From: Natribaculum luteum
GTDB taxonomy: Archaea > Halobacteriota > Halobacteria > Halobacteriales > Natrialbaceae
DNA: 64,000 nucleotides
Direction: 5' to 3'
Assembly (NCBI RefSeq): GCF_023008545.1
Contig: NZ_CP095398.1
Location: 434,001 to 498,000 of the forward strand
Each line of letters begins with the position of its first letter. The first letter of the stretch is position 1. The translations under genes were made by a program, and so were the position numbers. Positions 20,130-34,940 of this stretch are shown piece by piece. The notes under the pieces were generated by a model. The model was not told the origin of the DNA and did no database searches. It saw only the letters and a list, made by a program, of their open reading frames with translations.

Positions 20130-21934
20130 TGTGTGGAATTGTCGGCTACGTCGGGTCGGACGAGAACAACACGATGGAGGTTCTCCTCGACGGCCTGTCG
20201 GGGCTCGAGTATCGCGGTTACGATTCCGCAGGCGTTGCACTCGCCGATAACTCGATCGACGTCCACAAGAAAGAAGGCGAACTGTCGGCACTCGAGTCGG
20301 CACTTCCAGACACGACCGCGACCGCCCAGAAGGAATCGGTCGGCATCGGGCACACGCGATGGAGCACGCACGGCCCGCCGTCCGACGTGAACGCCCACCC
20401 GCACACCGACGCCGATCGACGAGTAGCAGTGGTCCACAACGGCATCATCGAGAACTACCAGACGCTACGAGACGAACTGGTCGACGCTGGGGTCGAGTTT
20501 CGAAGCGACACGGATACCGAAGTCGTCCCCCATCTCATCGGAACGTACCTCGACGCCGGAATCGACAGGGAGGCCGCGTTCCGCCGGGCGATCGATCGAC
20601 TCGAGGGCAGTTACGCGATCGCAGCCGTCTTCGAGGGCTCGGAAACGATCTATGCGGCGCGGAAAGACTCCCCACTCGTCCTCGGTATCGGCGAGGAGGG
20701 ACACTATCTCGCGAGTGACGTCCCGGCATTTATCGAGTATACTGACCGGGTCATCTACCTCGACGACGGCGAGTTCGCTCGACTGACACCCGAGGACGTG
20801 ATCGTAACGGATTCGACCGGGACCGTCGTCGAGACGTCGATCGAAACCATCCAGTGGGACGCAGAGGACGCCGGCAAAAGCGGCTACGACCACTACATGC
20901 TCAAGGAGATCCACGAGCAACCGAAGGCACTTCGGCAGTGTCTGCGTGGTCGACTCGACGAACTCAACGGGCAGGTCGAACTCGAGGAACTTGGCGACCT
21001 GTCTCGCACTGGTCCGGTCCAGTTCGTCGCCTGCGGGACGTCGTATCACGCCGCGTTGTACGGTGCCACGTTGCTTCGCGAACGAGGTGTTTCGGCCCAG
21101 GCGTTCCTGGCAAGCGAGTACGACGCCGAGGCGATCCCCGTCGGTGCCGATTCGATGGTCGTCGGCGTCACCCAGAGCGGCGAGACGGCAGACACGATGC
21201 GGGCGCTGCGCGAGGCGAACCGTGCCGGAGCGACGACCATCGCGGTAACGAACGTCGTCGGCAGTTCGGCCGCACGGGAGTGTGATTACGCCCTGTACAT
21301 TCGTGCTGGTCCGGAGATTGGCGTCGCGGCGACCAAGACGTTCGCGAGCCAGCAGACGGCGCTGACGCTGTTGGCCTGTGCGCTCACAGATCAGGGGTCG
21401 CGAAACCTCGTTCGGCAACTACGAGCCGTCCCAGACCAGATCCAGACCGTACTGGACACCTCCCGGGCACGTGAGATTGCCGAGGTATACGAAGATGCAG
21501 ACGCGTACTTCTTCATCGGCCGTGGCTACCATCGCCCTGTCGCACTCGAGGGGGCGTTGAAAATGAAAGAAATCACCTACAAACACGCCGAAGGATTCGC
21601 GTCTGGCGAACTGAAACACGGCCCACTGGCACTGGTAACCGAGAACACGCCCGTGTTCGCCATGGTGACTGGCGATTCAGAGCAAGCGTCCAAGACGATC
21701 GGAAACGTCAAAGAGGTGGAAGCACGCGACGCGCCGGTCGTCGCCGTCACCGACGGGCAGTCGAACGTCGGCCGGTACGCAGACCACGTCCTCGAGGTGC
21801 CAGCAGGCGACGAGATCACGAGCTCGATCGTCGCGAACGTTCAGCTCCAGCTGGTGTCGTACTGGGTCGCCAATCGGCTCGGACGGTCGATCGACAAGCC
21901 GCGAAACCTGGCCAAGAGCGTCACCGTCGAGTGA
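20129..21934 (+). CDS. glmS: Glutamine--fructose-6-phosphate aminotransferase (isomerizing)
   Basis: The 601-residue enzyme opens with the Ntn-type amidotransferase nucleophile (MCGIVGYVGS, Cys2 after Met removal), then GHTRWSTHG and the HNGIIENY glutamine-site motif. Two SIS domains follow (CGTSYHAALYG near residue 295 and GRGYHRPVALEGALKMKEI near residue 465), and it ends in the conserved C-terminal tail KPRNLAKSVTVE. It converts fructose-6-P plus Gln to glucosamine-6-P. With the overlapping GlmU-like gene it supplies UDP-GlcNAc for N-glycans and surface polysaccharide. Length is normal for the family. Confidence 0.97.
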   Translation: MCGIVGYVGSDENNTMEVLLDGLSGLEYRGYDSAGVALADNSIDVHKKEGELSALESALPDTTATAQKESVGIGHTRWSTHGPPSDVNAHPHTDADRRVAVVHNGIIENYQTLRDELVDAGVEFRSDTDTEVVPHLIGTYLDAGIDREAAFRRAIDRLEGSYAIAAVFEGSETIYAARKDSPLVLGIGEEGHYLASDVPAFIEYTDRVIYLDDGEFARLTPEDVIVTDSTGTVVETSIETIQWDAEDAGKSGYDHYMLKEIHEQPKALRQCLRGRLDELNGQVELEELGDLSRTGPVQFVACGTSYHAALYGATLLRERGVSAQAFLASEYDAEAIPVGADSMVVGVTQSGETADTMRALREANRAGATTIAVTNVVGSSAARECDYALYIRAGPEIGVAATKTFASQQTALTLLACALTDQGSRNLVRQLRAVPDQIQTVLDTSRAREIAEVYEDADAYFFIGRGYHRPVALEGALKMKEITYKHAEGFASGELKHGPLALVTENTPVFAMVTGDSEQASKTIGNVKEVEARDAPVVAVTDGQSNVGRYADHVLEVPAGDEITSSIVANVQLQLVSYWVANRLGRSIDKPRNLAKSVTVE

Positions 21935-21985
21935 GGTCGCGTTCGGCACGTGACCACGCCGTTCTCGCCGCGATTCTCGCCACGT

Positions 21986-23227
21986 CTAGGTGATCGTACG
22001 CGGCAATCGCCACGAGGCGAGGAGCGATGCGACCGTCCCCATCCCGACGGCGATCACCGCACTCGCGGCGGCGACTCGCGGCGACGCGACGACCAGGCCG
22101 TCGTAGCCGACGACGGCGGAAACGATCGCGTTCAGCACGTGAGCGAGCGGGAACGTCAACAGGGCACCCAGGAGCCAGCCGGCGAGTCCGAGGAACAGCC
22201 CCTGCGCGACGACGATCCCGGCGACAGTTCGCCGCGAGACGCCGAGTGCTGCGAGGGTCGCGAACTCGTCTCGGTGTTGATAGACGAACAGCGCGAGCAG
22301 ACTGACCGTCAGTACCGACCCCGTCACGAACGCCAGCACGACGAGCATCCCTGCCCCGACGAGGACCGTCGCCTGCTGGCCGACGACGGCCTCGAGTTGC
22401 TCCTTGTTCGTCCGGATCTCGTAGCTCGGGTGCGCGGTCTCGAGGTCCGACTTGACTGCGCGGGGATCGGCACCGTCTTCTAGCGTGATCGTAATCATCG
22501 TCGCTGGATCGGTGCCCGTCGTTCCAGTAACCGTCTGGAGTTCGCTCAACGGGAGCGTCACCGTCGGCGTCCCGAGGAACTGCGAGAACGTCGGCGAGAC
22601 GCCGACGACGGTGAACTCGTGTTCTCGAGCGGCCGAGAGCGTGCCGCCGACGTGGAGCGTGTCGTTGACCTCGAGGTCGTACGCGCGCGCGGTGCGTTCG
22701 TCGACGACGATCTCGTGTGACATCGGGCCGTCGTAGGTACCCTCCGCGTAGTGTCGATCGCCGCCGCTGAATCCACGGCCCGCTGTAATCGAGACGGAGC
22801 TGCCACTGCCGGGGACGCCAGTCGCGACGATCGTGTCGAACGACGACTCGTTCTCGCCCACGTAGACGGTCTGGAACGACAGCGGGACGGCACTTCGAAC
22901 GTCGTCGTGGCGCTGCATGTCGGCCGCGACTGCGTGTGAATCGTGAATCGAATTCGTGAACCCACCACCACGAGTCGGCGTCAGTCCGAGCGGGCCGCCG
23001 GTCACCCAGAGGTCTCGATCGGCCGCGTCGAACTGCTGTTCACCGACCTCCATGACGCCCATCCCGCCGCCAGCGAGGAGCGTCATCGCCAGGACGGCAA
23101 GCGCGATCCCGAAGACGGCGACGACCGTCCGCGTCCGTTCGTGTGCGAGTTGCGTCCACGCGAGCCCGCCGAGTGCTCGCCACCGCCGGCCCAGACGGAC
23201 GACGACGTTACGCACGGAGCCGATCAC
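21986..23227 (-). CDS. ABC exporter permease, FtsX/MacB type (second)
   Basis: The 413-residue permease has one N-terminal helix (residues ~35-53), a large extracytoplasmic MacB-like domain (residues ~55-265) and three C-terminal helices (residues ~280-400) around the FtsX motif (EFATLAALGVSRRTVAGIVV). It lacks an ATPase of its own. It overlaps the neighbouring permease by about 20 nt, so the two are co-translated with the ATPase gene just upstream. The likely cargo is a lipid, lipoprotein or peptide. Confidence 0.88.
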   Translation of the reverse strand: MIGSVRNVVVRLGRRWRALGGLAWTQLAHERTRTVVAVFGIALAVLAMTLLAGGGMGVMEVGEQQFDAADRDLWVTGGPLGLTPTRGGGFTNSIHDSHAVAADMQRHDDVRSAVPLSFQTVYVGENESSFDTIVATGVPGSGSSVSITAGRGFSGGDRHYAEGTYDGPMSHEIVVDERTARAYDLEVNDTLHVGGTLSAAREHEFTVVGVSPTFSQFLGTPTVTLPLSELQTVTGTTGTDPATMITITLEDGADPRAVKSDLETAHPSYEIRTNKEQLEAVVGQQATVLVGAGMLVVLAFVTGSVLTVSLLALFVYQHRDEFATLAALGVSRRTVAGIVVAQGLFLGLAGWLLGALLTFPLAHVLNAIVSAVVGYDGLVVASPRVAAASAVIAVGMGTVASLLASWRLPRTIT

Positions 23228-24494
23228 CCCCCATCTCGAGTCGTGTCATAGCGAGTGCCAGTACCGGGATCGTCAACACGCCGATGACGAGGGCCGCAAC
23301 GACGCCGTAGCCGACGAGGGCAGGGTGGAAGACGGCGACCGATCCGACGTCGAAGAACGCATTCGCGGCGACGTTGGCGATCCGGACCCCGAGCGCTCCG
23401 ACCAGACTCCCGAGGAGTCCACCGACCAGTGCGACGAGAAGCGCCTGGACGCCGTAGGTCGTGAGTCGAGACCGGAATTCCACGCCGATCGCGGCGAGCG
23501 TCCGCAACTGGTCCTGGTCGGCGGCCACTTCGAGGACCATCGTCGTCGCGATGAACAACGAGCCGACGACGATCGCGACGAGGACGGCCGCGAGACTCAA
23601 CGCCAGCCCCAGATCCGAATCCAGGAGTTGCTGTGTCGTCAGCTCGTCACTCGACAGGACCGCCGACTGCGGATAGATCCCGTCGAGGTCAGAGGTGACC
23701 GACGACGAGGTCGCCTCGACGAGGAACTGATCGGCCTGATCGTGGCTACTCGCGCCCGTGATCGACTGTAGTTCGGCGAGGTGCATCACGGCGATCGGTG
23801 CCGCTCCCATCACGTTTCCCGTCTCGCTCGTTTCGATCCCGGTAGTCGTGAACGTCCTGTTCGTTCCACGGCCAGCGACGGTAAGCGTGTCGCCATGCTC
23901 CGACTCGAGGAGCGTCGCCGCTCCTTCTGAGAGGACGACTTCACCAGTCCACTCACCGTCGTACGTGCCCTCGGCGTAGAACGGGTCGCCTGCTGTCATC
24001 GCGTCAGTCGAGAGTCCCATTACCGTCTGCCCGTCCACGTCTGCGACGACGCCGATCGCGACGACGTACTCCGTCGTCCCGGCGTCAGTTTCGAGTCTGA
24101 GCACGTCCACGAGCAACGGCGTCGACGTGCGGACGGCGTCGTGGTCGCGGATCCGCTCGTTCGCACCGTGAGCGCCACCGAACTGGGGATCGCCCGTCGC
24201 GACGAGCGGTGAGCTGTCTCCGCTCGTCTCCGAGACGATCCAGTAGTCACCGGCGTTTCCGGCGCCTGTCGCTGGGGCTGCGATACCGATCGCGAGGCCG
24301 GTGACGATCAGCAACAGCGTGACGGCCATCCCGACGCCGACGACGCTCATCAACGTCCGCTTTGGCGCGAGCCAAAGCGCCTGCGAGACGAACCGTCGCC
24401 ACGCCAGACCACACCGTCCCTTCCAGCGGCGAACCCTCGCTAGCCGTCCCGGAGACGGCGACGATCGACTCGAGTAGTCGTTCTCAGACGGCAT
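23208..24494 (-). CDS. ABC exporter permease, FtsX/MacB type (first)
   Basis: This 428-residue permease has the same architecture as its neighbour: an N-terminal helix (MSVVGVGMAVTLLLIVTGLA), a MacB periplasmic-like domain and three C-terminal helices with DQLRTLAAIGVEFRSRLTTYG. The start at MPSEND (24494) overlaps the ATPase stop by 11 nt. A longer reading frame extends to 24743, but its first 83 residues are a shadow of the ATPase gene and were excluded. The two different permeases with one ATPase imply a heterodimeric exporter. Confidence 0.87.
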   Translation of the reverse strand: MPSENDYSSRSSPSPGRLARVRRWKGRCGLAWRRFVSQALWLAPKRTLMSVVGVGMAVTLLLIVTGLAIGIAAPATGAGNAGDYWIVSETSGDSSPLVATGDPQFGGAHGANERIRDHDAVRTSTPLLVDVLRLETDAGTTEYVVAIGVVADVDGQTVMGLSTDAMTAGDPFYAEGTYDGEWTGEVVLSEGAATLLESEHGDTLTVAGRGTNRTFTTTGIETSETGNVMGAAPIAVMHLAELQSITGASSHDQADQFLVEATSSSVTSDLDGIYPQSAVLSSDELTTQQLLDSDLGLALSLAAVLVAIVVGSLFIATTMVLEVAADQDQLRTLAAIGVEFRSRLTTYGVQALLVALVGGLLGSLVGALGVRIANVAANAFFDVGSVAVFHPALVGYGVVAALVIGVLTIPVLALAMTRLEMGGDRLRA

Positions 24495-25287
24495 CCGTAC
24501 TGTCCATCTCGGTCGTCTCGACTCGCTTCCCGTCGTGAAGTTCGACGACCCGGTCGGCGATCTCGAGCGTCGCCCGATCGTGCGAGGCCAGGACGACCGC
24601 GTGATCGGTGGCGACAGACTCGAGTTCGGCCAGCACCCGGCGGCCGGCCTCGCTGTCGAGTTCGCCGGTCGGTTCGTCTGCCACCAGGAGCGTCGGTTCC
24701 GTAACGAGCGCCCGGGCGATCGCGACGCGTTGCTGTTCGCCACCGCTGAGTTCGCCCGGCGTGTGCTGGATCCGGTCGCCGAGTCCGACGCGCTCGAGTG
24801 CCGCCGTCGCCCGCTCGCGGCGATCGCGTTTCGACAGCCCCAGCTCGAGAAGCGGGATCGCGACGTTCGTGCGGGCCGAAAACGCGTCCAGCAGGTGGAA
24901 TCGCTGGAAGACGATGCCGACGTCGTGTAGCCGGTGGGTCGTCAACTCGCGACTGGACTGCTGTGTGAGGTCCGTCCCGTCGAAGACGACGCGCCCCGAA
25001 TCGGGCTGCTCGAGGCCGGCGAGCAGGTGTAACAGCGTCGACTTGCCGCTTCCACTCGGGCCGGCGAGCGCGACGATTTCGCCAGGACGAACCGTGATCG
25101 AGACGTCCGCGAGTGCTGTCACTGTCGGGCGATCGTCCCCGGTCGCCTGCCACGGGAGATAGCTCGCGAGACTCGAGGTCGTTCCGCGCGCGTACGTCTT
25201 CGAGAGGGACTCACCCCGTACAACGGGGGCTACATCCGTGGGGGAGTCCCGTTTCTCGGCCGTCGTGCTACGCATCGTCTCCGTCAT
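24484..25287 (-). CDS. ABC transporter ATP-binding protein (LolD/MacB type)
   Basis: The 267-residue ATPase has Walker A GPSGSGKST, the Q-loop VFQRFHLLDAF, the ABC signature LSGGEQQRVAIARAL, Walker B LLVADEPTGELD and the switch His (LASHD). It closely resembles the MacB/LolD branch. A Ser/Thr-rich N-terminus of about 45 residues precedes the fold. Translation overlaps the first permease. The PGF-CTERM surface protein lies 88 nt upstream on the same strand and could be a partner. Confidence 0.94.
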   Translation of the reverse strand: MTETMRSTTAEKRDSPTDVAPVVRGESLSKTYARGTTSSLASYLPWQATGDDRPTVTALADVSITVRPGEIVALAGPSGSGKSTLLHLLAGLEQPDSGRVVFDGTDLTQQSSRELTTHRLHDVGIVFQRFHLLDAFSARTNVAIPLLELGLSKRDRRERATAALERVGLGDRIQHTPGELSGGEQQRVAIARALVTEPTLLVADEPTGELDSEAGRRVLAELESVATDHAVVLASHDRATLEIADRVVELHDGKRVETTEMDSTDAV

Positions 25288-25375
25288 GTCGTTCGTCTCC
25301 AGCGGGGACCATCGGTTACGTGTACGTATCGATATCTGTGAGAGATCAAAAAGGCTGTTAGTTCGTCAGCAGCCC

Positions 25376-27295
25376 TCAGTCAGACCGAGTCCGAAGCGCG
25401 AGCAGGGCCGCAGCGATCGCGGCGATCGCCATCGGCGCACCGAAGCCGGGGAGGCCGTCGCCACCGTCCTCTTCCTCGGCGACGGTTAGCGTCCCTGCGG
25501 ACGTGCCGCTGACTTCGATCTCGTACTCGCCAGCCTCTTCGAACTGTCTGGTGAAGCTGACCGTCTTTTCAGTTCCGGTTCCGATCGTGACCGACTTCTC
25601 GTCGACGACCTCGCCGTCGACGATCAGTTCGGCCGTGAACGTTCCGAGCTGGCCACCGACGTTCTCGACGGTGGCCGTGACGTCGGCCGACTCGCCGGCT
25701 TCGATCTCCGTGTCGCTCAGCGTCGCGTCCGTCACGTCGAACTCGGCCGGCGGAGGCCCGGTGACGACGAGTTCGCCAGCCGACGCGTCGTTGACTGCGA
25801 TGGTGTGCGTACCTGGCGAGTCGAACGTTTGGGTGAACGTCACCGTCTCCGACTCACCGGCGTCGACGTCGACGTCTTGTTCGTCGACGACCTCGCCGTC
25901 GACGATCAGCTCGGCCGTGAACGTCCCGGAGACGTCGCCGACGTTCTCGACGATCGCCTTGACGTCGACCGACTCGCCGGCTTCGATCTTCGTGTCGCTC
26001 AGCGTCGTCTTCTTCACGTCGAACGTAGCGTTCTCTCCAGGCTCAGGTTCGGGCTCCGGTTCCGGTTCGGGGACCGGGCTCGGCGGCGCAATCGGGATTC
26101 CACCGCCCGGCGGCGACGTCTCTTCTTCTTCCACATCGAGCGTCCCCGTCGAGGTCGCGACCTGATCGGTCGTCGACGCGACGTGGATCCAGCGGTACTC
26201 CTTTTCGGGCCACTCCTCGAGCGTGGCGACGTCGATCGTCTCGTCGCTGTCGTTCGCGACGACCATCGTCGTCGACGCGTTCAGGACGTCGTCACCGAGG
26301 TCGACGGAATCCGATTCGTTCAGATCACCGACGACGAGGTCGACCACCTCGTCGAACGGAGTGCGGTTCGTCTCGTCCCCAGTGATGGTTTCACCGACCG
26401 TGACGACGCCCTCGACGGTGCCAATCGGCTGTTCGACGACGACGTCGCCCATCGTGAAGTCCGCGTCGAGGGAATCGGTCAGGTTGATCGTCACCGGGGT
26501 CGTTTCGATCGTCGACTCGTCGTAGAGGACGATCGTGTGTGCGACATCGCCGTCGGTCTCAAGTCCGTCGTCGACGTTCTCGAACGTCGCGTTGTTACCG
26601 GGTTCGACGGACGAGGGTGCGTCGACGCTCGAGGCACTATCCTGGACGAACAGACTCTCGACGCCGATGATCGTCGAGGGACCCTGGGGCTCGAGGTTGC
26701 CGTCCCCGTCGACTGCCAGCCCGCCGTCCTCGTCGTACGTCGTGACGAGTACGACGTGTGCGCCGGGTGCGTCAGGCGTGTACGTAACGTCGTCTGCGAA
26801 CTTACCGTCTGCGATCGTCGTCTCGGCCGCCTGAGTGAAGCTGGCGTTCTCGTTCAGGTCGGAGACGGACGGCATCTGGTCGAACGTGGACAGTGCCGTT
26901 CCCTCGTCCAGCGTGCCGACGATCACTCTGACGTCGTCGCCATCGTACTGGGTCGTGTCTGCTTCCGGCGAAACCGGGTCGAACTCGAGTTCGACCTCTT
27001 CCTCGGCTCCGAACACCGCTAATTCGCCGCGCCGAAGGTCAAACTCCCTGTTTTCGGAGGTACTGATGAACAGATCTTGATTGCTAACGACCGTCTGTCC
27101 ATCACTTGTGTTCGCTCGAAGCGGGAAGATCGACCGATCCCACACCGAAACGTCGTTGCCTATCTCGTATTCCGTCCCGTACGACGAACCGTCGTTTTCC
27201 CCATCTTGCGTCGGTTCCGCACCGACTACACCCACAATGGGTGCGAGTGCAAGCATGAGGATTATCCCCACCGTAACAGCAGTTCTAGTCATCAC
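25376..27295 (-). CDS. PGF-CTERM-anchored surface protein with two CARDB domains
   Basis: The 639-residue protein has an N-terminal signal peptide (residues ~1-26), a long beta-rich region with N-glycosylation sequons, a repetitive Pro-Glu linker (PEPEPEPEPEPGENATF), two tandem CARDB-like cell-adhesion domains (FDVKKTTLSDTKIEAGESVD and a near-copy about 90 residues later) and a C-terminal PGF-CTERM tripartite signal (GLPGFGAPMAIAAIAAALLALR TRSD). That signal is the known substrate motif for archaeosortase A, which removes it and attaches a lipid. A TATA-like AAAAATAAC at about 27316-27328 sits the standard distance from the ATG. The start may be 27295 or 27292. Confidence 0.88.
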   Translation of the reverse strand: MMTRTAVTVGIILMLALAPIVGVVGAEPTQDGENDGSSYGTEYEIGNDVSVWDRSIFPLRANTSDGQTVVSNQDLFISTSENREFDLRRGELAVFGAEEEVELEFDPVSPEADTTQYDGDDVRVIVGTLDEGTALSTFDQMPSVSDLNENASFTQAAETTIADGKFADDVTYTPDAPGAHVVLVTTYDEDGGLAVDGDGNLEPQGPSTIIGVESLFVQDSASSVDAPSSVEPGNNATFENVDDGLETDGDVAHTIVLYDESTIETTPVTINLTDSLDADFTMGDVVVEQPIGTVEGVVTVGETITGDETNRTPFDEVVDLVVGDLNESDSVDLGDDVLNASTTMVVANDSDETIDVATLEEWPEKEYRWIHVASTTDQVATSTGTLDVEEEETSPPGGGIPIAPPSPVPEPEPEPEPEPGENATFDVKKTTLSDTKIEAGESVDVKAIVENVGDVSGTFTAELIVDGEVVDEQDVDVDAGESETVTFTQTFDSPGTHTIAVNDASAGELVVTGPPPAEFDVTDATLSDTEIEAGESADVTATVENVGGQLGTFTAELIVDGEVVDEKSVTIGTGTEKTVSFTRQFEEAGEYEIEVSGTSAGTLTVAEEEDGGDGLPGFGAPMAIAAIAAALLALRTRSD

Positions 27296-27596
27296 CTGAA
27301 AGTCTAATCAACACAAGTTATTTTTTTCCCTTTGTTTCTAGCCAGAGAGTATAAGATCATTCCTGCCTGGAACACGCACGCCTCTGGCGCCTGATCGCAT
27401 TTTCCCCATTCGGATGAAAGCAAGTTGTTATGGATCGATATCGGTCTCCAGTTCAGTCTTGATTTATCGTATCGAAAGTATTATATTTCGATCTAAAGAC
27501 CTAATCGAACGCATCATCACCGACCGATAGGTCGGATCGAACACCGTCGTGGTTGGTTGTCGATCACGATGGTGATACTCACATGAGACATCCACT
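27296..27596. promoter_or_regulatory. AT-rich divergent promoter region with inverted repeats
   Basis: This 301-nt divergent intergenic region is AT-rich. It contains two inverted repeats: ATCGAAA / TTTCGAT with an 8-nt spacer (27471-27492), and CCGACC / GGTCGG with a GATA spacer (27520-27535). It separates two surface-protein genes, so the repeats may be operators for either. No coding gene is visible inside. Confidence 0.4.
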
Positions 27597-28733
27597 ATGA
27601 CCGAACGATATACTCGAGTCGCCTCGACGATCCTCGCCCTCACTCTCGTCCTCTCGGCGTGTGCGCTCACTGGTGTCGCCGCCAGTGACGAAGCCAGCCT
27701 GTCCGTACCCGGTTCGATCGATACGCCGACGAAAACGGTCTCGATCGAAGGAACCGAGTACGAGGTGAGTAGCGTTGCCGTGCGCGAGCCGGGTCAGTCG
27801 CTCCCCGTCGACGTGAGCGCGTCTGACAGCACTGATTTCCGGGTCGACCTCTACAACAGCGACGAACAGCGAGAAAACTCGCAATACGGTACCGGCTCCG
27901 AGCGCGTGACGTTCGACACTGACGCGTTAGATCCTGGTACCTATCTCCTCATGCTCCAGATCGACGACGACTACGTCGAGATCCACCCCGTCGTCATCAG
28001 CGGCTACGACGTCGAGACCGATCACGCCGACGAGATCGAACCCGACGAGACGCTGAACGCGACCATCTCGGTGACGCCGACGGCAGCCGACGGAGATCCA
28101 GAGGGCGTCGAACTGGTCGTCTGGAACGACGAGACGACGATTCGCGAATCCGCAGAACAGACCGACGACGGCACGTACGAGGCGACCGTGTCGGACCTCG
28201 AGGAAGGAACCTACGACGTCTACGCCATCGCACAGGGTGGTGACGAGATCGACGGCGAACACGAAATCCTCGGGGTAAGCGACGGCGGCTCACTCGAGGT
28301 CGCCGAATCGACCTCGGAACCGACACCGCCGGACGACGGCGACGATGGATCCGAAGACGACGACAGTGACAACGAATCAGACCCGGTCGACGACGGCGAT
28401 GCGGACAACGTCAGTGACGGCGAGTCGGAGAACGTCAGCGACGGTGAGCCGGACAACGGCAGCGATAACGAGACAGACGTGATCGACGATCCGGTCGATG
28501 GCGACGAGGGCAACGAAACCACAGACAGCGACGACGGAGCGGACAACGACAGTTCGAGCGAGTCGAACGAGACCAGCGAGGTCGTCATGCCGACGAACGA
28601 GACGAACGAGACGGACGCTGGAACCGAGGACGACCCCGGAGCAGGATCCGATTCAGTCCCGCTCGAGGCCGTTCCGATACTCGTCTTCGCGCTCGTCATC
28701 GTCGGTGTCAGTACTCGGGTGACACGGCGGTAG
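27597..28733 (+). CDS. Surface-exposed Ser/Asp-rich membrane-anchored protein
   Basis: The 378-residue protein has an N-terminal signal (STILALTLVLSACALTGVAA), an Ig-like N-terminal domain and a beta domain resembling a carboxypeptidase-regulatory or CarboxypepD_reg fold (YEATVSDLEEGTYDVYAIAQ). A low-complexity Asp/Ser/Glu/Asn stalk of about 100 residues with many N-glycosylation sequons (NVSDG, NETD, NETS) follows, then a C-terminal helix ending VTRR. There is no PGF motif. It is probably a surface stalk protein. It lies divergently from the PGF-CTERM protein. Confidence 0.75.
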   Translation: MTERYTRVASTILALTLVLSACALTGVAASDEASLSVPGSIDTPTKTVSIEGTEYEVSSVAVREPGQSLPVDVSASDSTDFRVDLYNSDEQRENSQYGTGSERVTFDTDALDPGTYLLMLQIDDDYVEIHPVVISGYDVETDHADEIEPDETLNATISVTPTAADGDPEGVELVVWNDETTIRESAEQTDDGTYEATVSDLEEGTYDVYAIAQGGDEIDGEHEILGVSDGGSLEVAESTSEPTPPDDGDDGSEDDDSDNESDPVDDGDADNVSDGESENVSDGEPDNGSDNETDVIDDPVDGDEGNETTDSDDGADNDSSSESNETSEVVMPTNETNETDAGTEDDPGAGSDSVPLEAVPILVFALVIVGVSTRVTRR

Positions 28734-28811
28734 ATTGATCGTCGCAGCTGTCCCCGCTGTTCTTTTGTCGGTCGCAGAGATCACTCTCTGCAGTCCATTT
28801 GCGATATCCAT

Positions 28812-28916
28812 CGCGGGCAGATGTCTCGCAGTGGATTGGTCACCAGTCAACTGGCCCTCAAGTCAGGGACGGTGAACGTGAACGGCGAGTACACGCCTGC
28901 CGAGTTACGCGGTTAG
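28812..28916 (+). pseudogene. tnpB: 3' remnant of a tnpB gene
   Basis: The 34-codon segment DIHRGQMSRSG and LVTSQLALKSGTVNVNGEY then TPAELRG ends in TAG at 28914. It matches the C-terminal tail that I recall for a clade of haloarchaeal TnpB proteins. The rest of the gene is absent. A structured region with three perfect stems follows directly (28936-29016), as expected of the right end and omega-RNA of such elements. This is therefore a decayed IS200/IS605 relic, oriented tail to tail with the intact element at 29131-30740. Confidence 0.55.
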
Positions 28917-28935
28917 AACGGGAGTCCACTGACAA

Positions 28936-29016
28936 GCCTCGGGGTCGTTCGGAAGATCTTCGATCTTCCGTGATGACGAGACGCCTCCGGCGTCTCGAAC
29001 CACTTGACCCCGAGGC
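28936..29016 (+). ncRNA. Omega-RNA-like three-stem structure of a tnpB relic
   Basis: Three perfect stems are nested: an outer 11-bp stem (GCCTCGGGGTC at 28936-28946 with GACCCCGAGGC at 29006-29016) enclosing two 9-bp hairpins (28950-28970, loop TTC; 28977-28997, loop TCC). The three-way-junction shape and its place directly after a TnpB tail suggest the structured 3' end (guide-RNA scaffold) of an IS200/IS605 element. It ends GAGGCAGTTGAC, similar in form to other TnpB right ends. Expression is unknown. Confidence 0.5.
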
Positions 29017-29130
29017 AGTTGACTGGACAGAAACAGAAGAGAACGCGTACAGAGATTCTGACCGGGGACGCCACACCGCTGCGATCGTCGAATCGGAAAA
29101 TAGTGGAGGGAAAGTCAGTTGCTATAGGCA

Positions 29131-29198
29131 TTGACCTCCTCCACGCCCTTCAGGGCGTGGAATCCCACCATGGGATTTCGGCCTCTCGCGGGGAGGCC
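29131..29198 (-). ncRNA. Predicted omega-RNA scaffold / right end of TnpB element
   Basis: Three consecutive hairpins (stems of 6, 7 and 8 bp) run from 29198 to 29141 downstream of the TnpB stop. In TnpB systems the RNA scaffold overlaps the 3' end of the gene and the right end, and the 3' end of the RNA carries the guide. Sense-overlapping transcripts from IS1341-type loci have been described in haloarchaea. Prediction rests on structure and position only. The adjacent flanking bases (about 29110-29130) would be the guide. Confidence 0.5.
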
Positions 29199-29233
29199 TT
29201 CACGGTTTCAAGACGCATACGCGCTCGCGTCAT

Positions 29234-30511
29234 CTACCTCGCCCCCGCAGTGCCAGTTTCGCTCTGGTTGCTAGACTCAGTATCTGCGAGCGTGTCTTGT
29301 GGCCCGGTCAAACAGGCCCCATCCCCGCCAGAGTCATCGCCAGCCACCTTCTCACTCGAATCCGAGTGCGTTTGGGGCTGGCTCTCTCCAGCGGGGTCGT
29401 ATCTATCCGCAATATTGAGCGCGGCGTTGATATCCGCCTGATACTCAGACACCCAACACTCTTCGTTCGTACATTTGAACGTGCCCTGTCGCGGGCGATA
29501 GCCTTTCTCGCCACACGCGTGGCACGTCTTCGACGTGTACGCTGGTTCGACGGTCGCCACGGGAATCCCGTGTTCGGTCGCTTTGTACTCGATTTGGGCG
29601 TGGAGCGTGGCGAACGCCCAGCCGTGTAATCGGCGGTTCATGAACCTGCCGTAGTCCATGTTCTCACGGAGGTGCTGGAGGTCTTCTAACACTACGACGG
29701 GATTCTCGACGGTCTGCGCATGGGCGACCACGTCGCTCGACACGGTGTCGATGAGCTGGTCGATCCGCGCCCAGAGTTCGTCACTGTACTCCTCGTCGAG
29801 GCGGGCTGCCTCACGCTGTTGGAGGCGGCGTGTGGCCGTGAAGTAGGTTTTCCGCAGGCGTCTGACTTCGCGGGATTCGTCGCTCCAGATAGTGGGTGTG
29901 GTCGGGGTGCCGCGCTCGTCACGGTGACACACCGTGGCCAAGGCAGCCTCCCCGATATCCACCCCAATCGGCGTCGGCTCACTGGCAGACGCCGACCTGG
30001 ACTGCTCGACACCTCGCGTCACGGGCATGTGGACGTACCACTCACCATCCCGTTCGATGAGTTGACATTCGCCCATCTCTGCATCGCCGTGGTACAATGC
30101 TTCGAGCCAGTCGTGCTTGTGCGCTGGTGGTTGAGCGGGCAGCCACAGGTGGTAGTCGTCGTGGTGTGGGATTTTCACGTACCACTCGATGGCATTCTGT
30201 GGCTTGTGGTCGAGACTTGGTCCTTCGTTCGTGAAGCGGACGGGATGGGTTTCCTCTCTGAGTTCGTCTGCGTCGTACGTGTCCTCGTCGAGTAGGTTCG
30301 GAACGTACTGTTTGAGGGCGTTCTTCGCGTAGCCGGAGAGGTCGTAGTCGACGACCACGTCGTTGGTTTTGGTTTGGGTGTCGCAGTCTTGGTCGAACGC
30401 GTCGTGGAGGGCGAGTTGGTACTCGTCGACTGTCTCACGGAGCTTGCGCTGTTTGTGCGCGTTCGGGTTGACAAGCTTGAGTTGCAGCGTCTCCGTGAGT
30501 TCGTCGAGCAT
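29234..30511 (-). CDS. tnpB: RNA-guided endonuclease TnpB (IS200/IS605 family)
   Basis: The 425-residue protein shows all three RuvC-like acidic residues (PIGVDIGEAALA, VVVLEDLQHLRE and YQADINAALNIADRY) and a zinc finger between them (CHACGEKGYRPRQG then FKCTNEECW). The N-terminal region is the OrfB helix-turn-helix. It appears intact. TnpB uses an element-encoded omega-RNA to cut donor-site DNA and maintain the transposon. The start at 30511 follows the DUF2080 stop by 7 nt. A longer frame to 30625 overlaps DUF2080 and was rejected. The C-terminus has a Ser/Asp/Gly-rich tail that carries the RNA scaffold region. Confidence 0.9.
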   Translation of the reverse strand: MLDELTETLQLKLVNPNAHKQRKLRETVDEYQLALHDAFDQDCDTQTKTNDVVVDYDLSGYAKNALKQYVPNLLDEDTYDADELREETHPVRFTNEGPSLDHKPQNAIEWYVKIPHHDDYHLWLPAQPPAHKHDWLEALYHGDAEMGECQLIERDGEWYVHMPVTRGVEQSRSASASEPTPIGVDIGEAALATVCHRDERGTPTTPTIWSDESREVRRLRKTYFTATRRLQQREAARLDEEYSDELWARIDQLIDTVSSDVVAHAQTVENPVVVLEDLQHLRENMDYGRFMNRRLHGWAFATLHAQIEYKATEHGIPVATVEPAYTSKTCHACGEKGYRPRQGTFKCTNEECWVSEYQADINAALNIADRYDPAGESQPQTHSDSSEKVAGDDSGGDGACLTGPQDTLADTESSNQSETGTAGAR

Positions 30512-30518
30512 GGGGGCG

Positions 30519-30671
30519 TTATTCGTCGGTGGGTGGGTCGCTGGTGCGGACGATGTTGACGGCTGCGCCGCGCCAGTTTTTGGGGACGAGGACGTGCGCG
30601 CTGTTCCCAGTGGGTTTGACCTCACCTTCGATGACTTCGTGACCGTTGATTTCGAATCTACCAGTAATGAT
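30519..30671 (-). CDS. DUF2080-family transposon-associated protein
   Basis: The minus strand reads IITGRFEINGHEVIEGEV then KPTGNSAHVLVPKNWRGAAV then NIVRTSDPPTDE, ending TAA at 30519-30521. This is the DUF2080 protein that commonly precedes haloarchaeal tnpB (AbrB/MazE-like strand pattern). There is no ATG, GTG or TTG in frame before the conserved part, so translation would need an unusual start such as ATT (30668) or ATC (30671), or the start has been lost. A TATATAAATA box (about 30672-30683) lies just upstream. It is 7 nt from tnpB. Confidence 0.7.
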   Translation of the reverse strand: MITGRFEINGHEVIEGEVKPTGNSAHVLVPKNWRGAAVNIVRTSDPPTDE

Positions 30672-30834
30672 AGTATTTATATATTGTTTAAACCTAATGT
30701 TTCGACTGAGGGAAATCCAGACCTCTGATACGCATGGTTCGTGTGGCTGGGCCTATCGCTCGACCGCCGCCTAAAGTCGGAGGTATGCGCTAACAATCTC
30801 TATCAGAATAGAGTCACTGCTAACGACTTCTGCA

Positions 30835-32040
30835 ATGGACGTTCGAACCGTTCTTGGACGCGAACTGAAGGCACTGTGGGGTGGCGGAAAGGGAACCTCT
30901 CTCGTCGCGATCGCAACCACGTGGGGACTGCTGGTCGGGACGCGGATGATCTACCCCGTCGTACTGCCGTCGCTCCAGAGCACCTACGGCCTCAGCCTGA
31001 CAGTTTCCGGCCTGCTCGTGACCGTTCTCTGGCTCTTCGCCTCGATCGGCCAACTTCCGGGCGGCGTGCTCGCAGACCGGTACAACGAACGCACGCTCAT
31101 GGCCACGAGCGCTATCGTCGTCGCAGTGGCGCTTGGCTTCGTCGTCACGGCACCCACGCCGGTCGTGCTGTTCGCCGCAACGGCGTTCTGGGGACTGGGA
31201 CAGTCGCTGTATCCGATCGCTCGCATCACGCTCCTCTCGACGCTCTACTCCGAACGACTCGGTAGTGCACTCGGCGTGACGATGGCCACGGGCGACGTCG
31301 GCCAGACGATACTACCGCCGGTTGCGGCCTTCCTCGCCGCCACGTTCGCCTGGCAGGTCGGTCTCGGGTACGTGGCACCACTCTTGCTTCTCGGCGGGCT
31401 CGTCATCTTCATTACCGTTCCGGCCCGGCGGCCGGCCGACCAGCCAGCCGAGACGCGATCGATACGAGACATGGTAGGCGTGTTCGCAGAGCTACGCAAT
31501 CCGTCGATGGGATTCATGACTCTCATCCTGTTTCTGTACATTTTCATCTGGCAGTCGTTCACAGCCTTCTATCCGACGTACCTGACGACGGTGAAGGGGC
31601 TCTCGTCGACCGTCTCGAGCGTGCTGTTCGGCCTCTTCTTTGCGGTCGGCGTCGTCGTCAAACCGGTCGCCGGTGCCGCCTACGATCGCATCGGGATGCG
31701 CAGCTCGCTCGTCGGCGTTCTTCTGCCGCCTGTCGCTGGATTCTCGCTGCTGCCGATCGTCGAGAGCGTCTGGGTTCTCGGCGCCATTACCGCCCTGATC
31801 AGTACGATGCTCGGGTCGGGTGCGATCACACAGTCGTACCTGGCCGACTCGTTTTCCGAGGAGATGCAAGGAACGGGACTGGGGGTAATTCGAACGACGA
31901 CCGCGACGCTCGGTGCCGGCGGTCCGGTTCTCTTCGGCGTGATCGCAGACAACGGCTACTTCGATGCGGGGTACGTCGTTCTGGCCGCGATTATGGCTGC
32001 GGTCATTCTTCTCACGCTTCGGATGCCACACGCTGAGTGA
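30835..32040 (+). CDS. Major facilitator superfamily transporter
   Basis: The 401-residue protein has 12 predicted helices and the MFS loop 2-3 motif (GQLPGGVLADRYNERTLM, residues ~70-87). Loop 8-9 shows the related AGAAYDRIGMRSSL. It resembles a proton-coupled drug or organic-anion exporter or importer, but no substrate-specific residues are recognisable. It stands alone between the TnpB element and a convergent aminotransferase gene. The start gives an N-terminal cytoplasmic helix (MDVRTVLGRELKALWG) before helix 1. Confidence 0.87.
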   Translation: MDVRTVLGRELKALWGGGKGTSLVAIATTWGLLVGTRMIYPVVLPSLQSTYGLSLTVSGLLVTVLWLFASIGQLPGGVLADRYNERTLMATSAIVVAVALGFVVTAPTPVVLFAATAFWGLGQSLYPIARITLLSTLYSERLGSALGVTMATGDVGQTILPPVAAFLAATFAWQVGLGYVAPLLLLGGLVIFITVPARRPADQPAETRSIRDMVGVFAELRNPSMGFMTLILFLYIFIWQSFTAFYPTYLTTVKGLSSTVSSVLFGLFFAVGVVVKPVAGAAYDRIGMRSSLVGVLLPPVAGFSLLPIVESVWVLGAITALISTMLGSGAITQSYLADSFSEEMQGTGLGVIRTTTATLGAGGPVLFGVIADNGYFDAGYVVLAAIMAAVILLTLRMPHAE

Positions 32041-32332
32041 CGGCCGCCACGGCCACCAGGTCAGGTATTGCACTTGCTCTACGTGACTGTCCGCCGGTTC
32101 TGGCACGTTGCACCATTCGTGCTGACCAGTCGGTGTGACGTTACCCGTTTCGACGAGTTTCGTAGCAGCCGACGGTTGTCGCGTTCCGTCCCAGTTCTTA
32201 TGAACCGTTTTGTCCGGCAGTATAAAGATACGTTCGACAGCGTTCCGATTTCCATGGCGTCCGGTCCGAAATCGGAGTCCCGCTCGTTGCAATGCAGCCG
32301 CTAGTGATCGAAACCCGCTGTGACTGCTCGAG
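32041..32332. other. Convergent intergenic region
   Basis: These 292 nt separate the convergent MFS and aminotransferase genes. A TATA-like GTATAAAG near 32219 is present on the + strand, but only a 16-codon ORF (32254-32304) follows it, which I do not consider a gene. No tRNA or mobile-element signature is apparent. Confidence 0.35.
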
Positions 32333-33748
32333 CTACGGCAGGTCGCCGCTGGTGGCCGCCCGGAGCGCGTCCGTGACGATGTCGAGGCCGATCTCGGCTT
32401 GCTCGTGCGTCGTGACCAGCGGTGGCAGGAGCCGGAGAACGTTGCCCTCCCGTCCGGCCTTCCAGATGAGCACGCCGTTTTCGTAACACCGGGTCTGGAC
32501 CGCCTTGACAAGATCCGCACTCGGCTCGCCGTCTTCGTCGATCAACTCGACACCGACGAACAGTCCCTCGCCACGTACCTCACCCACGAGGTGGCTGTCG
32601 ACGTCCTGCAAGCGACTGCGGATGTACTCGCCGAGTTCGGTCGCGTGCTCGAGCAGGTCGTGTTCCTGGACGTACTCGATCGCGGCGGTTCCACCCCGCA
32701 TCGCGGGAACGTTACCCCGGAAAGTGCCGATGTGGCCGCCCGGCCCCCACGTGTCGAACTGCTCGTGGTACAGCGTCGCCCCGAGCGGGAGTCCCGCACC
32801 GCCGATGCCCTTCGCCATCGTGATCACGTCGGGCGTCACGTCGTAGTGTTCGCAGGCCCACCACTTCCCGGTGCGACCGAACCCCGACTGGATCTCGTCG
32901 GCGACGAGCAGGGCGTCGTTGTCGTCGGCGATGTCGCGCAACCCCTGCAGGAAGCCCTTCGGCGGCACGACGACGCCGCCTTCGCCCTGGATCGGCTCGA
33001 CCCAGATCGCCGCCGGCGGCTCGTGGCCGCTGTAGGGCCCCTCGAACTTCTCTTTGACCGCCTCGAGCGAGCGAGCGCAGGACATCCGACCACAGCAGTC
33101 ACCACGGGGACACACCGCCTCGGCGTCGTCGTCGCTCAGGGACTCGCGGTACGGGTACGGATAGCGGACGTGGATCGCGTCGGGCAACAGCGGCTCGTAG
33201 CCCGCCTTGTACTTGACGCCGCCGGTGAGGCTCAGCGCGCCTGCCGTGCCACCGTGGTACGATCCCTCGAACGCCAGCAGGCCGTGGCGACCGGTGTACT
33301 GTTTGGCCAGTTTGATCGACGCCTCGTTGGCGTCGCTGCCCGACGGCCCGCCGAACACCATCTTGCACTGATCGCGCAGCCCTGGCGGTGCGACGTCGTT
33401 TACCGCCTCGATGAACTCCAGGCGGGCCTCCGTCGGAAAGTCGATGGTGTGGACGAGTTTGCTCGTCTGGTCGTTCACCGCCTCGAGCACGTAGGGGTTC
33501 GAGTGACCGACGTTCATCACGCCGATGCCGGCGAAGAAGTCGAGGAAGACGTTTCCATCGACGTCTTTCAACGTCGACCCGCGTCCCTCCTCGAGCGCGA
33601 TAGGGACGACCTTCGGATAGGCGACTGCGCCGCTGTCGATGGCCTCCTGTCGCTCGAGCAGCCTCCGAGAGCGCGGACCCGGGATCTTCGTCTCGACGTT
33701 GGGGGCCTCGTCGAAGTGGAGGTCGTGAATGGGAGGTCCAGCCGTCAT
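32333..33748 (-). CDS. Class III PLP-dependent aminotransferase (GABA/diaminobutyrate type)
   Basis: The 471-residue enzyme has the class III signatures: [70 protein letters not shown] and the PLP lysine in [15 protein letters not shown]. It resembles 4-aminobutyrate or diaminobutyrate-2-oxoglutarate aminotransferases. A Cys-rich insert ([12 protein letters not shown]) between YRES and the EPIQGEGG region is unusual and could bind a metal or form a disulfide. A TATA-like GCATATTTCC lies about 27 nt before the ATG, so it is probably leaderless. It is distinct from the aminotransferase at 1655. Confidence 0.9.
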
Positions 33749-34003
33749 GCGCTATCTAGACGGCGAGAAGCGGGAAATATGCTTTGTTAATTGGTGCCAG
33801 CAAACAATGTCAGCAGATTCGCACGGACACGAAAATGGGCACGAATCGTCTCGTTCGCTCGTCGACTGCTGGAGTTACACGAGCTCTTCTGCTTCCGGGA
33901 GGTGTGTAGGCGTCATAGAAAGGGTCACACACCCACTACGTGGGTACCCAGATTCAATAAGTACAGACAATACAGTTGCCGGCCGTGGTGACTATTTGGT
34001 TGG

Positions 34004-34195
34004 ATGAAAACCTCATCTATTCGGAAACTATTTCAGCAACTGTTTAAAAACCAAGATATGGTCCTTGCGTTGGCTGCATACGTCTATGCATCGGTTCAGA
34101 CGCCTGAGCACGAGTTCAATGGAGGTTTTGCTTTGCTTCTGTTGTTTGCTGACGTGTGGGTTGCTGCAGCGTTCAGCCCAAGTTTATCGATATAA
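34004..34195 (+). CDS. Small hydrophobic protein (63 aa)
   Basis: The sequence has a charged N-terminus (MKTSSIRKLFQQLFKNQD) and two short hydrophobic segments (MVLALAAYVYASV and GFALLLLFADVWVAAAF). It may be a small membrane protein. It is AT-richer than its surroundings and no family is recognised. It sits between the aminotransferase and an IS-derived relic, so it may belong to foreign DNA. Confidence 0.4.
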   Translation: MKTSSIRKLFQQLFKNQDMVLALAAYVYASVQTPEHEFNGGFALLLLFADVWVAAAFSPSLSI

Positions 34196-34257
34196 AACGG
34201 CGGAGTGTCTATGTTCAGTGCGCATACCTACTTATCGGCTAATTCACCGTGGGAGTG

Positions 34258-34770
34258 GGTTTGACGTCCTCCGCACGGCTAACGCCGTGGGATTCCTCCG
34301 TGGGTATCACGGCCCGCATACGCGGGCTCCACCCCGGCTGTGAACTTGCGGGTTCACTGACGCGCCTTCAGCCCTCACACGGAGGGTTGTGGTGGTCTTG
34401 GGTATCTGCTCGGCGTAGCCCTCCCGAGGAGGGAGTGGCTCCCAGCGGCGTCCAGCGCACTGGGCAGTGGGCCGCGCCATCGGCCTGACCCTCGATTCAA
34501 ACCACGAGTGAGGGTCGTCGAGTGGCATGCCAACCACACTGCTGGTTGGGCTGCGAAGGGTGTGTTTGTGTGTAGGAGTGTGAGACCTACTCGTAGCCAT
34601 GGTGAGCGTGAGCGGGTTCCCCGCAGCAGCATGCCGCATGCCTATATCGAATAACGTGGAGATTCGTCTTAAACCTTTCAGATTGCGTGGGTGATTCGGG
34701 GGAGTCGTGTCGCGTGGTTTGATGCAGTAGTGACGGCTTCATCCCACGAGTAAACTCATGGGCTTTCGCC
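34258..34770 (-). mobile_element. IS605-derived relic with omega-RNA-like end (no tnpB)
   Basis: The lower end (34258-34330) reads, on the minus strand, a hairpin series ending GCGGAGGACGTCAA: GCCCGC/GCGGGC, CCGTG/CACGG and CACGGC/GCCGTG (stems at 34274-34289, 34298-34312 and 34312-34327). This is the same plan as the right end of the intact TnpB element. The upper end (about 34740-34770) has CCCACGAGT/ACTCATGGG with one mismatch followed by CTTTCGCC, a pattern I recall from haloarchaeal IS605 termini. The roughly 500 bp between holds no transposase. It resembles a non-autonomous element (PATE/MITE). A 110-codon open frame at 34307-34639 inside it is probably not translated. Confidence 0.5.
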
Positions 34771-34940
34771 TGTATATCGTGTAATCAACACCGCGGGAAA
34801 CGTTCTATGACACCCTCGGAGATGTTGCAAAGGTATCGTTCCGTCGAGCGCTCGATGAGGTCTCCTGCTAACGAACGTGCCCACGTGAGAGTTATTATGG
34901 TTGCACTCGTAGTTTGGATATTCGGTGGAGGGGGTTACCC

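Follow-up and report, generated by a model that had tools for sequence, protein, structure and literature searches.

Three omega-RNA-like hairpin clusters in Natribaculum luteum and their probable origin in three IS200/IS605-type insertions

We have examined three clusters of omega-RNA-like hairpins that lie between positions 28,812 and 34,770 of a 64,000-nucleotide stretch of DNA (the window; contig NZ_CP095398.1, positions 434,001 to 498,000) from an 862-kb replicon (G000:C2) of the haloarchaeon Natribaculum luteum. In a first-pass annotation, made from the DNA letters, they were taken as the end of one intact TnpB element and two loci without a tnpB gene, whose RNAs might still be used by the intact TnpB in trans. 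It is likely that the three clusters are the remains of three unrelated insertions of the IS200/IS605 type, namely an intact element, a relic that contains an inserted repeat, and a gene-less palindrome-associated transposable element (PATE). The structures seen in the first-pass annotation are real, but three different things were merged.

The existence of the three clusters was confirmed by reading and by folding, and their ends were found to belong to three different TnpB groups. These groups are represented by the TnpB of the window itself (L009), by L003 for the relic (assigned by a 94%-identical end), and by L022, L023, and L024 for the PATE. Between groups, the local identity of the TnpB proteins does not exceed 38%, or BLAST finds no match at E 1e-10, and a search of the N. 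luteum genome with the end of the window TnpB, up to E 10, returned neither the relic nor the third region. Since the groups are distinct and this search was negative, there is no support for the window TnpB serving the other two loci in trans. The reality of all three folds, together with relic stems that are perfect and unchanged in Natribaculum longum, would be the grounds for regarding the relic and the third region as surviving omega-RNAs of this kind; the 9-bp stems of the relic, however, come from an independent repeat, and we consider trans use by the window TnpB very improbable. Judged from the sequences, the trans idea survives for the PATE only, which could have a TnpB other than that of the window as its partner, with L022 and L024 as the candidates.

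The third cluster had been placed at 34258–34330 with no tnpB nearby. Its hairpins are real, but they form only one end of a 524-bp element, and the nearest PF07282 match is the window's own TnpB, more than 4 kb away. The features of this region are as follows.

34261 to 34784, minus strand: PATE, a transposase-free IS605-type mini-element of 524 bp with TTAC at the left and TCAA at the right, recognized from four copies in the genome (98–100% identity), from its ends and flanks, and from copies in Natribaculum breve and N. longum.
34261 to 34369, minus strand: omega-RNA-like 3′ end of the PATE, 78–80% identical over about 100 nt to the ends of TnpBs L022, L023, and L024.
34455 to 34494, minus strand: remnant of about 40 nt inside the PATE, related to tnpB 3′ coding sequence (84% over 38 bp to L022 and L023).
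34708 to 34784, minus strand: palindrome-bearing left end of the PATE; left-end matches in other genomes and plasmids have 74–92% identity.
33881 to 34814, no strand: PATE-holding segment that N. longum and N. breve lack at the syntenic position; the alignment with N. longum breaks off at 33880 and starts again at 34815, with 8 bp between, and that with the same-genus genome G049 breaks off at 33868 and likewise starts again at 34815.

The fold of the third region is only mildly above chance (z = −2.7 on the minus strand and −1.7 on the plus strand), and the region is accepted as a real feature on account of its position at the end of an element that occurs in four copies. The four copies in the N. 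luteum genome have sharp ends, and one of them (C2:540989, L062) has an interrupted left end. The TTAC start is found in the three complete copies of this genome, in one complete copy of N. longum (L447), and in three interrupted copies of N. breve (L261, L262, and L265). The right ends read GTCAA, and the sequence beyond them varies between insertion sites; the copy at C1:2469668 and L265 share both flanks and represent one ancestral insertion. In C2:540989 and in L261 of N. breve, another sequence breaks the left-end palindrome at a comparable position. Interruption of the palindrome is likewise reported in Haloquadratum, in the part of PMC3119063 available to us.

The element at 34261–34784 is a PATE as defined in that part of PMC3119063, where the PATEs of Haloquadratum are elements with no transposase, with near-terminal palindromes, with no terminal inverted repeats, and related to the ends of IS605. 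At 524 bp, the window element has no TnpB or TnpA match within it, both of its ends have matches among the IS605-type ends of relatives, and it occurs in multiple copies with no target duplication and with a short target oligonucleotide, TTAC. Among the elements described there, HqIRS71 carries part of the C-terminal coding region (PMC3119063). The window PATE differs from the Haloquadratum PATEs in the link of its 3′ end with the omega-RNA-like end of one particular TnpB group; the available part of that account has no guide RNA. A PATE of 489 bp, to be compared with the 524 bp found here, is present in the virus HRTV-DL1 and in its host Halorubrum lacusprofundi, and has one strongly transcribed end, a feature of the HRTV-DL1 element; the same source, of which a portion was accessible, refers to Gomes-Filho 2015 on the activity of a PATE as a noncoding RNA (PMC10544981). 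No match to the window PATE was found in phage records (E 1e-3), in a collection that may or may not include HRTV-DL1.

The PATE would be moved in trans by a Y1 transposase acting on its TTAC and TCAA ends. There is no match to a Y1 transposase anywhere in the window, and the N. luteum genome has 28 PF07282 matches versus 3 Y1 transposase matches, so that most of its tnpB copies are without a transposase of their own. The omega-RNA-like end of the PATE was aligned with 12 of the 17 related right ends that were fetched, the PATE of genome G088 being kept apart, and 10 of the 12 have a same-strand TnpB signal upstream. In this alignment the PATE keeps the conserved blocks and has one internal hairpin replaced. 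As with an omega-RNA scaffold, the 3′ part is common with that of a tnpB element and stands directly before the variable flank. Both L022 and L024, members of the group whose right end the PATE carries, have long open TnpB frames elsewhere in the genome. By virtue of the near-complete 3′ scaffold of the L022/L024 group that it keeps, the PATE could use those TnpBs in trans; RNA use, here as at the other two loci, is putative.

The relic is of a different nature, and its features are listed below.

28804 to 28916, plus strand: remnant of the 3′ end of a tnpB gene, 37 codons and a stop (translation IHRGQMSRSGLVTSQLALKSGTVNVNGEYTPAELRG*), continuous with the relic right end.
28936 to 29016, plus strand: near-terminal palindrome P1 (11 bp) split by a two-hairpin repeat, previously described as a three-way junction; identified from the fold and from the empty palindromes of L440–L443, L445, L446, and L032 of the N. 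luteum genome.
28944 to 29003, plus strand: 60-bp two-hairpin module, GTCGTTCG...TCGAACCAC, with hairpins at 28950–28970 and 28977–28997 and with boundaries taken from copies that have unrelated flanks.
29017 to 29023, plus strand: right-end tail of the relic, just past which a guide, if any, would start; several matches between copies lose their homology beyond query position 184 (window 29023).

The perfect stems of 11, 9, and 9 bp reported for the relic are present as described (28936–28946 with 29006–29016, 28950–28958 with 28962–28970, and 28977–28985 with 28989–28997), and the fold is far better than expected by chance (z = −6.1 on the plus strand and −7.5 on the minus strand, with none of 200 shuffles as good on either strand). 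Their perfection had been offered as a sign that the RNA is still used. The two 9-bp stems, however, belong to an independent repeat of about 60 bp, and sister TnpB elements share the same end without the repeat. The perfect 9-bp stems are the inserted repeat's own; RNA function need not be assumed, and their perfection does not show that an omega-RNA is still in use. The relic also lacks the whole tnpB gene at the 3′ end of which an omega-RNA would lie, since just 37 codons are left. To take perfect stems that outlast a gene as evidence for a used RNA is tempting; here the argument is wrong, as the 9-bp stems are those of a hopping repeat with a separate origin.

The relic tail from 28841 to about 28944 is 82–95% identical to 12 plasmid records (H26–H37, among 20 listed of the 78 plasmid records with a relic match), several of which are annotated as TnpB or transposase. 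Their similarity stops at about 28944, the first base of the module. Six of these 12 were read directly and end in a simple palindrome followed by GGTTGAC; the empty palindrome is exactly CCTCGGGG-CTTGA-CCCCGAGG in L440, L441, and L443, with variants in L442, L445, and L446, and five of the six elements (all except L443) have an annotated TnpB. The palindrome of L032, in the N. luteum genome, is likewise empty. The palindrome loop is filled by the two-hairpin module in the relic, in the N. luteum copy within L117, in N. longum, and in strain DL31. The same-genus genome G049 aligns with the window as far as 28803 and then diverges, and in N. longum the relic and the intact TnpB element are at the same place, in an alignment of 94% identity across 21290–33880. 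The nearest plasmid records to the replicon of the window are those of N. longum (CP095395.1) and N. breve (CP095391.1).

The relic and its N. longum ortholog differ at 7 of 257 positions, just 3 of which are inside the junction, where the triloop TCC is replaced by GGA and the stems are unchanged. This swap, an exchange of the triloop for its reverse complement, fits an inversion of the loop at the level of DNA, and it suits a DNA process better than selection on an RNA. We propose that the relic is the decayed right end of a TnpB group other than that of the window, and that an independent, mobile 60-bp two-hairpin repeat would have inserted into the loop of the palindrome at its end, with no target duplication.

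A pattern scan of public genome contigs with the core of the two-hairpin module only, the palindrome being excluded so that the sample is independent of the flanks, gave at least 121 matches in 120 fetched stretches, all counts being among the matches listed. Most of the copies in this flank-independent sample are located away from IS605 palindromes. The right flank is of IS605 type in 32, other in 84 (one of which reads N and one of which ends after 3 bases), and 5 are chance matches in bacteria, four flagged by script and the fifth (L338) by hand. For the 81 matches of the first 80 stretches, the left boundary was checked as well, and after removal of the 5 chance matches the remaining 76 comprised 20 IS605 palindromes, 49 other boundaries (one of which, L313, is IS605-like on reading), and 7 with no clear left end. 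In this first sample the modules are 56–68 bp in length, with ends GTCGTTCG and TCGAACCAC, and 110 of 134 hairpins are perfect. The arm-sequence sets of the two hairpin positions overlap, and each triloop is found in either orientation (TTC 28 and GAA 24; TCC 14 and GGA 18).

The copy at 28944–29003 is the best match in the N. luteum genome to model R3, at 81.2 bits, and is itself among the 38 sequences from which the model was built. Modules located away from IS605 palindromes are found in this genome at C2:726856 and at C1:322830; the latter (L453) lies inside long open frames that are not shown to be a gene. A weaker module match, L458 (C1:870712), stands beside what appears by eye to be the end of a tRNA. 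Longer junctions at L109, L114, and L115 (C2:523246, C2:738619, and C2:838264) have an extra hairpin pair within the central CGTGAT/GACGA of the module, apparently a nested insertion. In L451, L307, and L316, several modules outside IS605 palindromes are near a repeated GGGTGGGA(C/A)TGAAAGGGGC motif, which suggests a second, larger haloarchaeal repeat family as host. Tandem modules 84 bp apart, with an undetermined base between them, are found in L319 (Halorubrum coriense).

The junction as a DNA sequence was matched in 110 of 125 family genomes and in no phage record (E 0.01). Its TnpB context was determined for the best 100 of 150 aligned rows, from loci found by similarity to the window, with 21 further loci left out; after removal of the window row and of duplicates, 93 distinct units were obtained. 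Of the 93 units, 17 have a same-strand TnpB signal in the 400 bp upstream, 71 have none within 1.5 kb, and 5 are on short contigs, so that 71 of the 88 classifiable copies are without a same-strand TnpB signal in the 1.5 kb upstream. The signal was scored with a profile of 17 TnpBs from the N. luteum genome, which remote TnpBs could escape. Many of these TnpB-less copies share a layout such as TCTAC-AGGCGGAGCAGGCCGAGT-palindrome-GGTTCAC, which resembles the terminal-only PATEs in the available part of PMC3119063.

The nearest known relatives in kind are the SMR-A elements, small mobile repeats of about 110 bp with terminal inverted repeats that insert, without target duplication, into the near-terminal palindromes of PATEs and IS605-type elements (PMC3119063, part available). 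The module is similar in being small, in having terminal inverted repeats, and in entering palindromes without duplication, as is seen from the empty and filled palindromes. It differs in length (56–68 bp versus about 110 bp), although a longer variant with extra hairpins exists, and in having no strong preference for PATEs or IS605-type elements, with an IS605-type right flank in 32 of the 116 non-chance copies among the matches listed. The comparison is one of descriptions, as given in the available text of that source, and not of the sequences of HqIRS42, HqIRS43, and HqIRS55. In a literature search with four module sequence strings, two of the four occurred together in 9 papers, no title of which points to haloarchaea. 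Like that of the PATE, mobilization of the module is something that we infer.

Several observations weigh against the interpretation of these loci as insertions in which the junction is not an RNA and the PATE end is derived from an omega-RNA. An exact empty site of the PATE was not found, and it is a segment of 934 bp that is absent in the relatives instead; in plasmid records, where the exact site was sought with one copy (C2:540989), it was not found either, and other insertion sequences occupy one side. Covariation is weak in the alignment of the PATE with the TnpB ends, where 3 of 31 predicted pairs are changed on both sides, and the 400-nt 3′ part of the PATE folds better antisense (z = −3.2) than sense (z = −2.1), although both beat the shuffles. 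Model R2 matches the junction in 245 of 292 class genomes (E 0.001). The stems of the junction covary strongly, as those of an RNA would: the paired cells amount to 94.5% in alignment A1 versus 24–47% when slid, and to 96.8% in alignment A4 versus 34–50%. In addition, G-U exceeds A-C in the junction hairpins (35:16, p = 0.011), which is a hint of strand-specific selection.

These last two results, together with conserved unpaired stretches around CGTGATGACGA and TCGAACCAC (also seen in a set that was selected on this core), would suit a three-way junction that is a functional structured RNA, or a single-stranded DNA hairpin, selected in its own right within mini-elements and unrelated to TnpB. 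Two shuffle controls are nevertheless not clearly above chance. Further pair types are fewer than in the shuffles in both A1 and A4, and in A4, where rows were chosen on the invariant core and the invariant columns come partly from that selection, 10 pairs are changed on both sides versus a shuffled mean of 9.3, with 232 of 500 shuffles as high. The candidate pair 41–65 of A1 never forms (0 of 30). Over all pairs of the 93 units, the ratio of G-U to A-C is 74:42; the excess in the hairpins is mainly in the lower-scoring rows (28:13 versus 7:3), P1 has 32:24 (p = 0.35), and the flank-independent sample has just 11:8 over both hairpins and 7:3 in the second hairpin only. The excess is ambiguous, as G-T would be better tolerated than A-C in single-stranded DNA too. 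With loops in both orientations and with copies in varied contexts, one of them within a long open frame, we regard such a function for the junction as unlikely, and we retain the interpretation of an inserted mobile repeat.

The remaining cluster belongs to the intact element, whose features are as follows.

29131 to 30805, minus strand: intact tnpB-only element of the IS200/IS605 type, with its right end at 29131 and its left end near 30805; a 97%-identical copy is found elsewhere in the same-genus genome G049.
29234 to 30625, minus strand: tnpB open reading frame of 463 aa (NCBIfam NF040570 guided_TnpB, 118.5 bits, cut-off 100; PF07282, 66.2 bits, cut-off 26.3).
29118 to 29200, minus strand: omega-RNA-like, HgcC-like 3′ end of the element (RF00062 HgcC, 41.4 bits, E 4.4e-7).

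The element had been assigned to 29131–30740 with right-end hairpins of 6, 7, and 8 bp. The right end and the presence of the hairpins stand; the left end does not, and the centroid folds have stems of 6, 6, and 9 bp on the minus strand or 9, 6, and 8 bp on the plus strand. For the hairpins at 29131–29215, the folding z-scores are −2.6 (minus) and −3.6 (plus). The open reading frame passes the curated guided_TnpB model and does not reach the narrower models IS200_TnpB (42.1 versus 425) and IS607_TnpB (55.7 versus 350). The element encodes a TnpB and would carry, at its 3′ end, its own omega-RNA acting in cis.

No Rfam family matches anywhere in the window at its gathering score, and the HgcC match at the end of the window TnpB does not reach the gathering score of 50. 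The sotRNAs are described as omega-RNAs in haloarchaea (PMC12558985, part available). The TnpB end resembles them in its position at the 3′ end of tnpB on the same strand; its match to RF02656 (sot0042, 29140–29281) has 20.9 bits and E 0.029, far below the gathering score of 88, and the PATE differs in being without a tnpB. As candidate members of the HgcC or sotRNA families, neither the PATE end nor the relic gave a match up to E 10. In Thermococcus kodakarensis, five HgcC RNAs are expressed, three of them inside transposase genes and two not associated with any, according to the accessible part of PMC4247193. The end of the window TnpB and mini-elements of genomes G083 and G015 resemble HgcC, with the difference that all matches in the family genomes are below the gathering score: such sub-threshold matches occur in 50 of 61 family genomes, and none is above the cut-off. 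Among 30 fetched HgcC-like loci (L148–L177), an adjacent same-strand TnpB is present in 17 and lacking in 13 (L158, one of the 13, is on a truncated contig). HgcC may largely be TnpB omega-RNA.

The survival of an omega-RNA-like end after loss of tnpB, which had been suggested for both gene-less loci, does not apply to the relic; as a matter of anatomy it holds for the PATE, with its 3′ scaffold of the L022/L024 group, and for PATE-like elements with HgcC-like ends in G083, G015, and possibly G008. At least five near-identical mini-elements of G083 (L468, L469, L471–L473) have a left end, an HgcC-like end, and then different flanks, with no TnpB signal in the roughly 3.2 kb read around each. 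Relative to the TnpB-linked ends (L470, L148, L151, L154, L155, and L161), these mini-elements preserve the outer stems although both partners are changed at pairs 6–19, 7–18, 31–57, and 109–116 of alignment A6, changes that cannot be assigned to a branch. Of the 32 pairs derived from L470, 9 to 10 are not Watson–Crick in the mini-elements in this alignment, nearly all of them in two inner helices that the alignment fails to match. In L150 (G015) a PATE-type left end is located 172 bp upstream, and in L170 (G008) 292 bp upstream, both with no TnpB signal. From these comparisons, at least two further PATE types in relatives (G083 and G015, with G008 as a possible addition) carry omega-RNA-like ends.

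It could be argued that the omega-RNA-like end of the PATE owes its conservation solely to a requirement of the transposase for the right-end sequence, with no role for a TnpB. The window PATE and the 78%-identical PATE of G088 are most similar in the last 37 nt (95%), and the available part of PMC3119063 reports that PATEs reduced to very short, terminal-only forms may be mobile. Conservation between these two PATEs nevertheless extends about 100 nt inward: the omega-RNA-like right end is 86% identical and the remnant of the tnpB tail 88%, to be compared with 77% for the left end and 72–75% for the cores. The four pairs changed on both sides in the G083 PATE are, moreover, in outer stems that are kept far from the end. 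We regard conservation for the transposase alone as quite possible, if somewhat short of probable.

Nuclease-driven retention of IS605 elements uses omega-RNA. We tentatively suggest, as an idea that we hold to be possible but rather less than probable, that PATEs such as that at 34261–34784 are RNA-only mini-transposons, in which an omega-RNA lies between the left and right ends. The guide of each copy would come from its own right flank, a TnpB borrowed from another element would cut the site left empty after excision by the transposase, where TTAC precedes the guide sequence, and repair would restore the copy. In the literature, searched mostly as titles and openings of abstracts and with few subscription papers, neither a guide RNA on IS605 mini-elements nor a TnpB-less omega-RNA used in trans was found. 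Gene-less IS605 mini-elements keep the scaffolds of TnpB guide RNAs and may exploit TnpB in trans, an idea that is testable. The published transcripts of PATEs, and those of HgcC RNAs that have no transposase gene, could be reconsidered from this point of view. If the idea is true, gene-less elements would parasitize the nuclease as well as the transposase.

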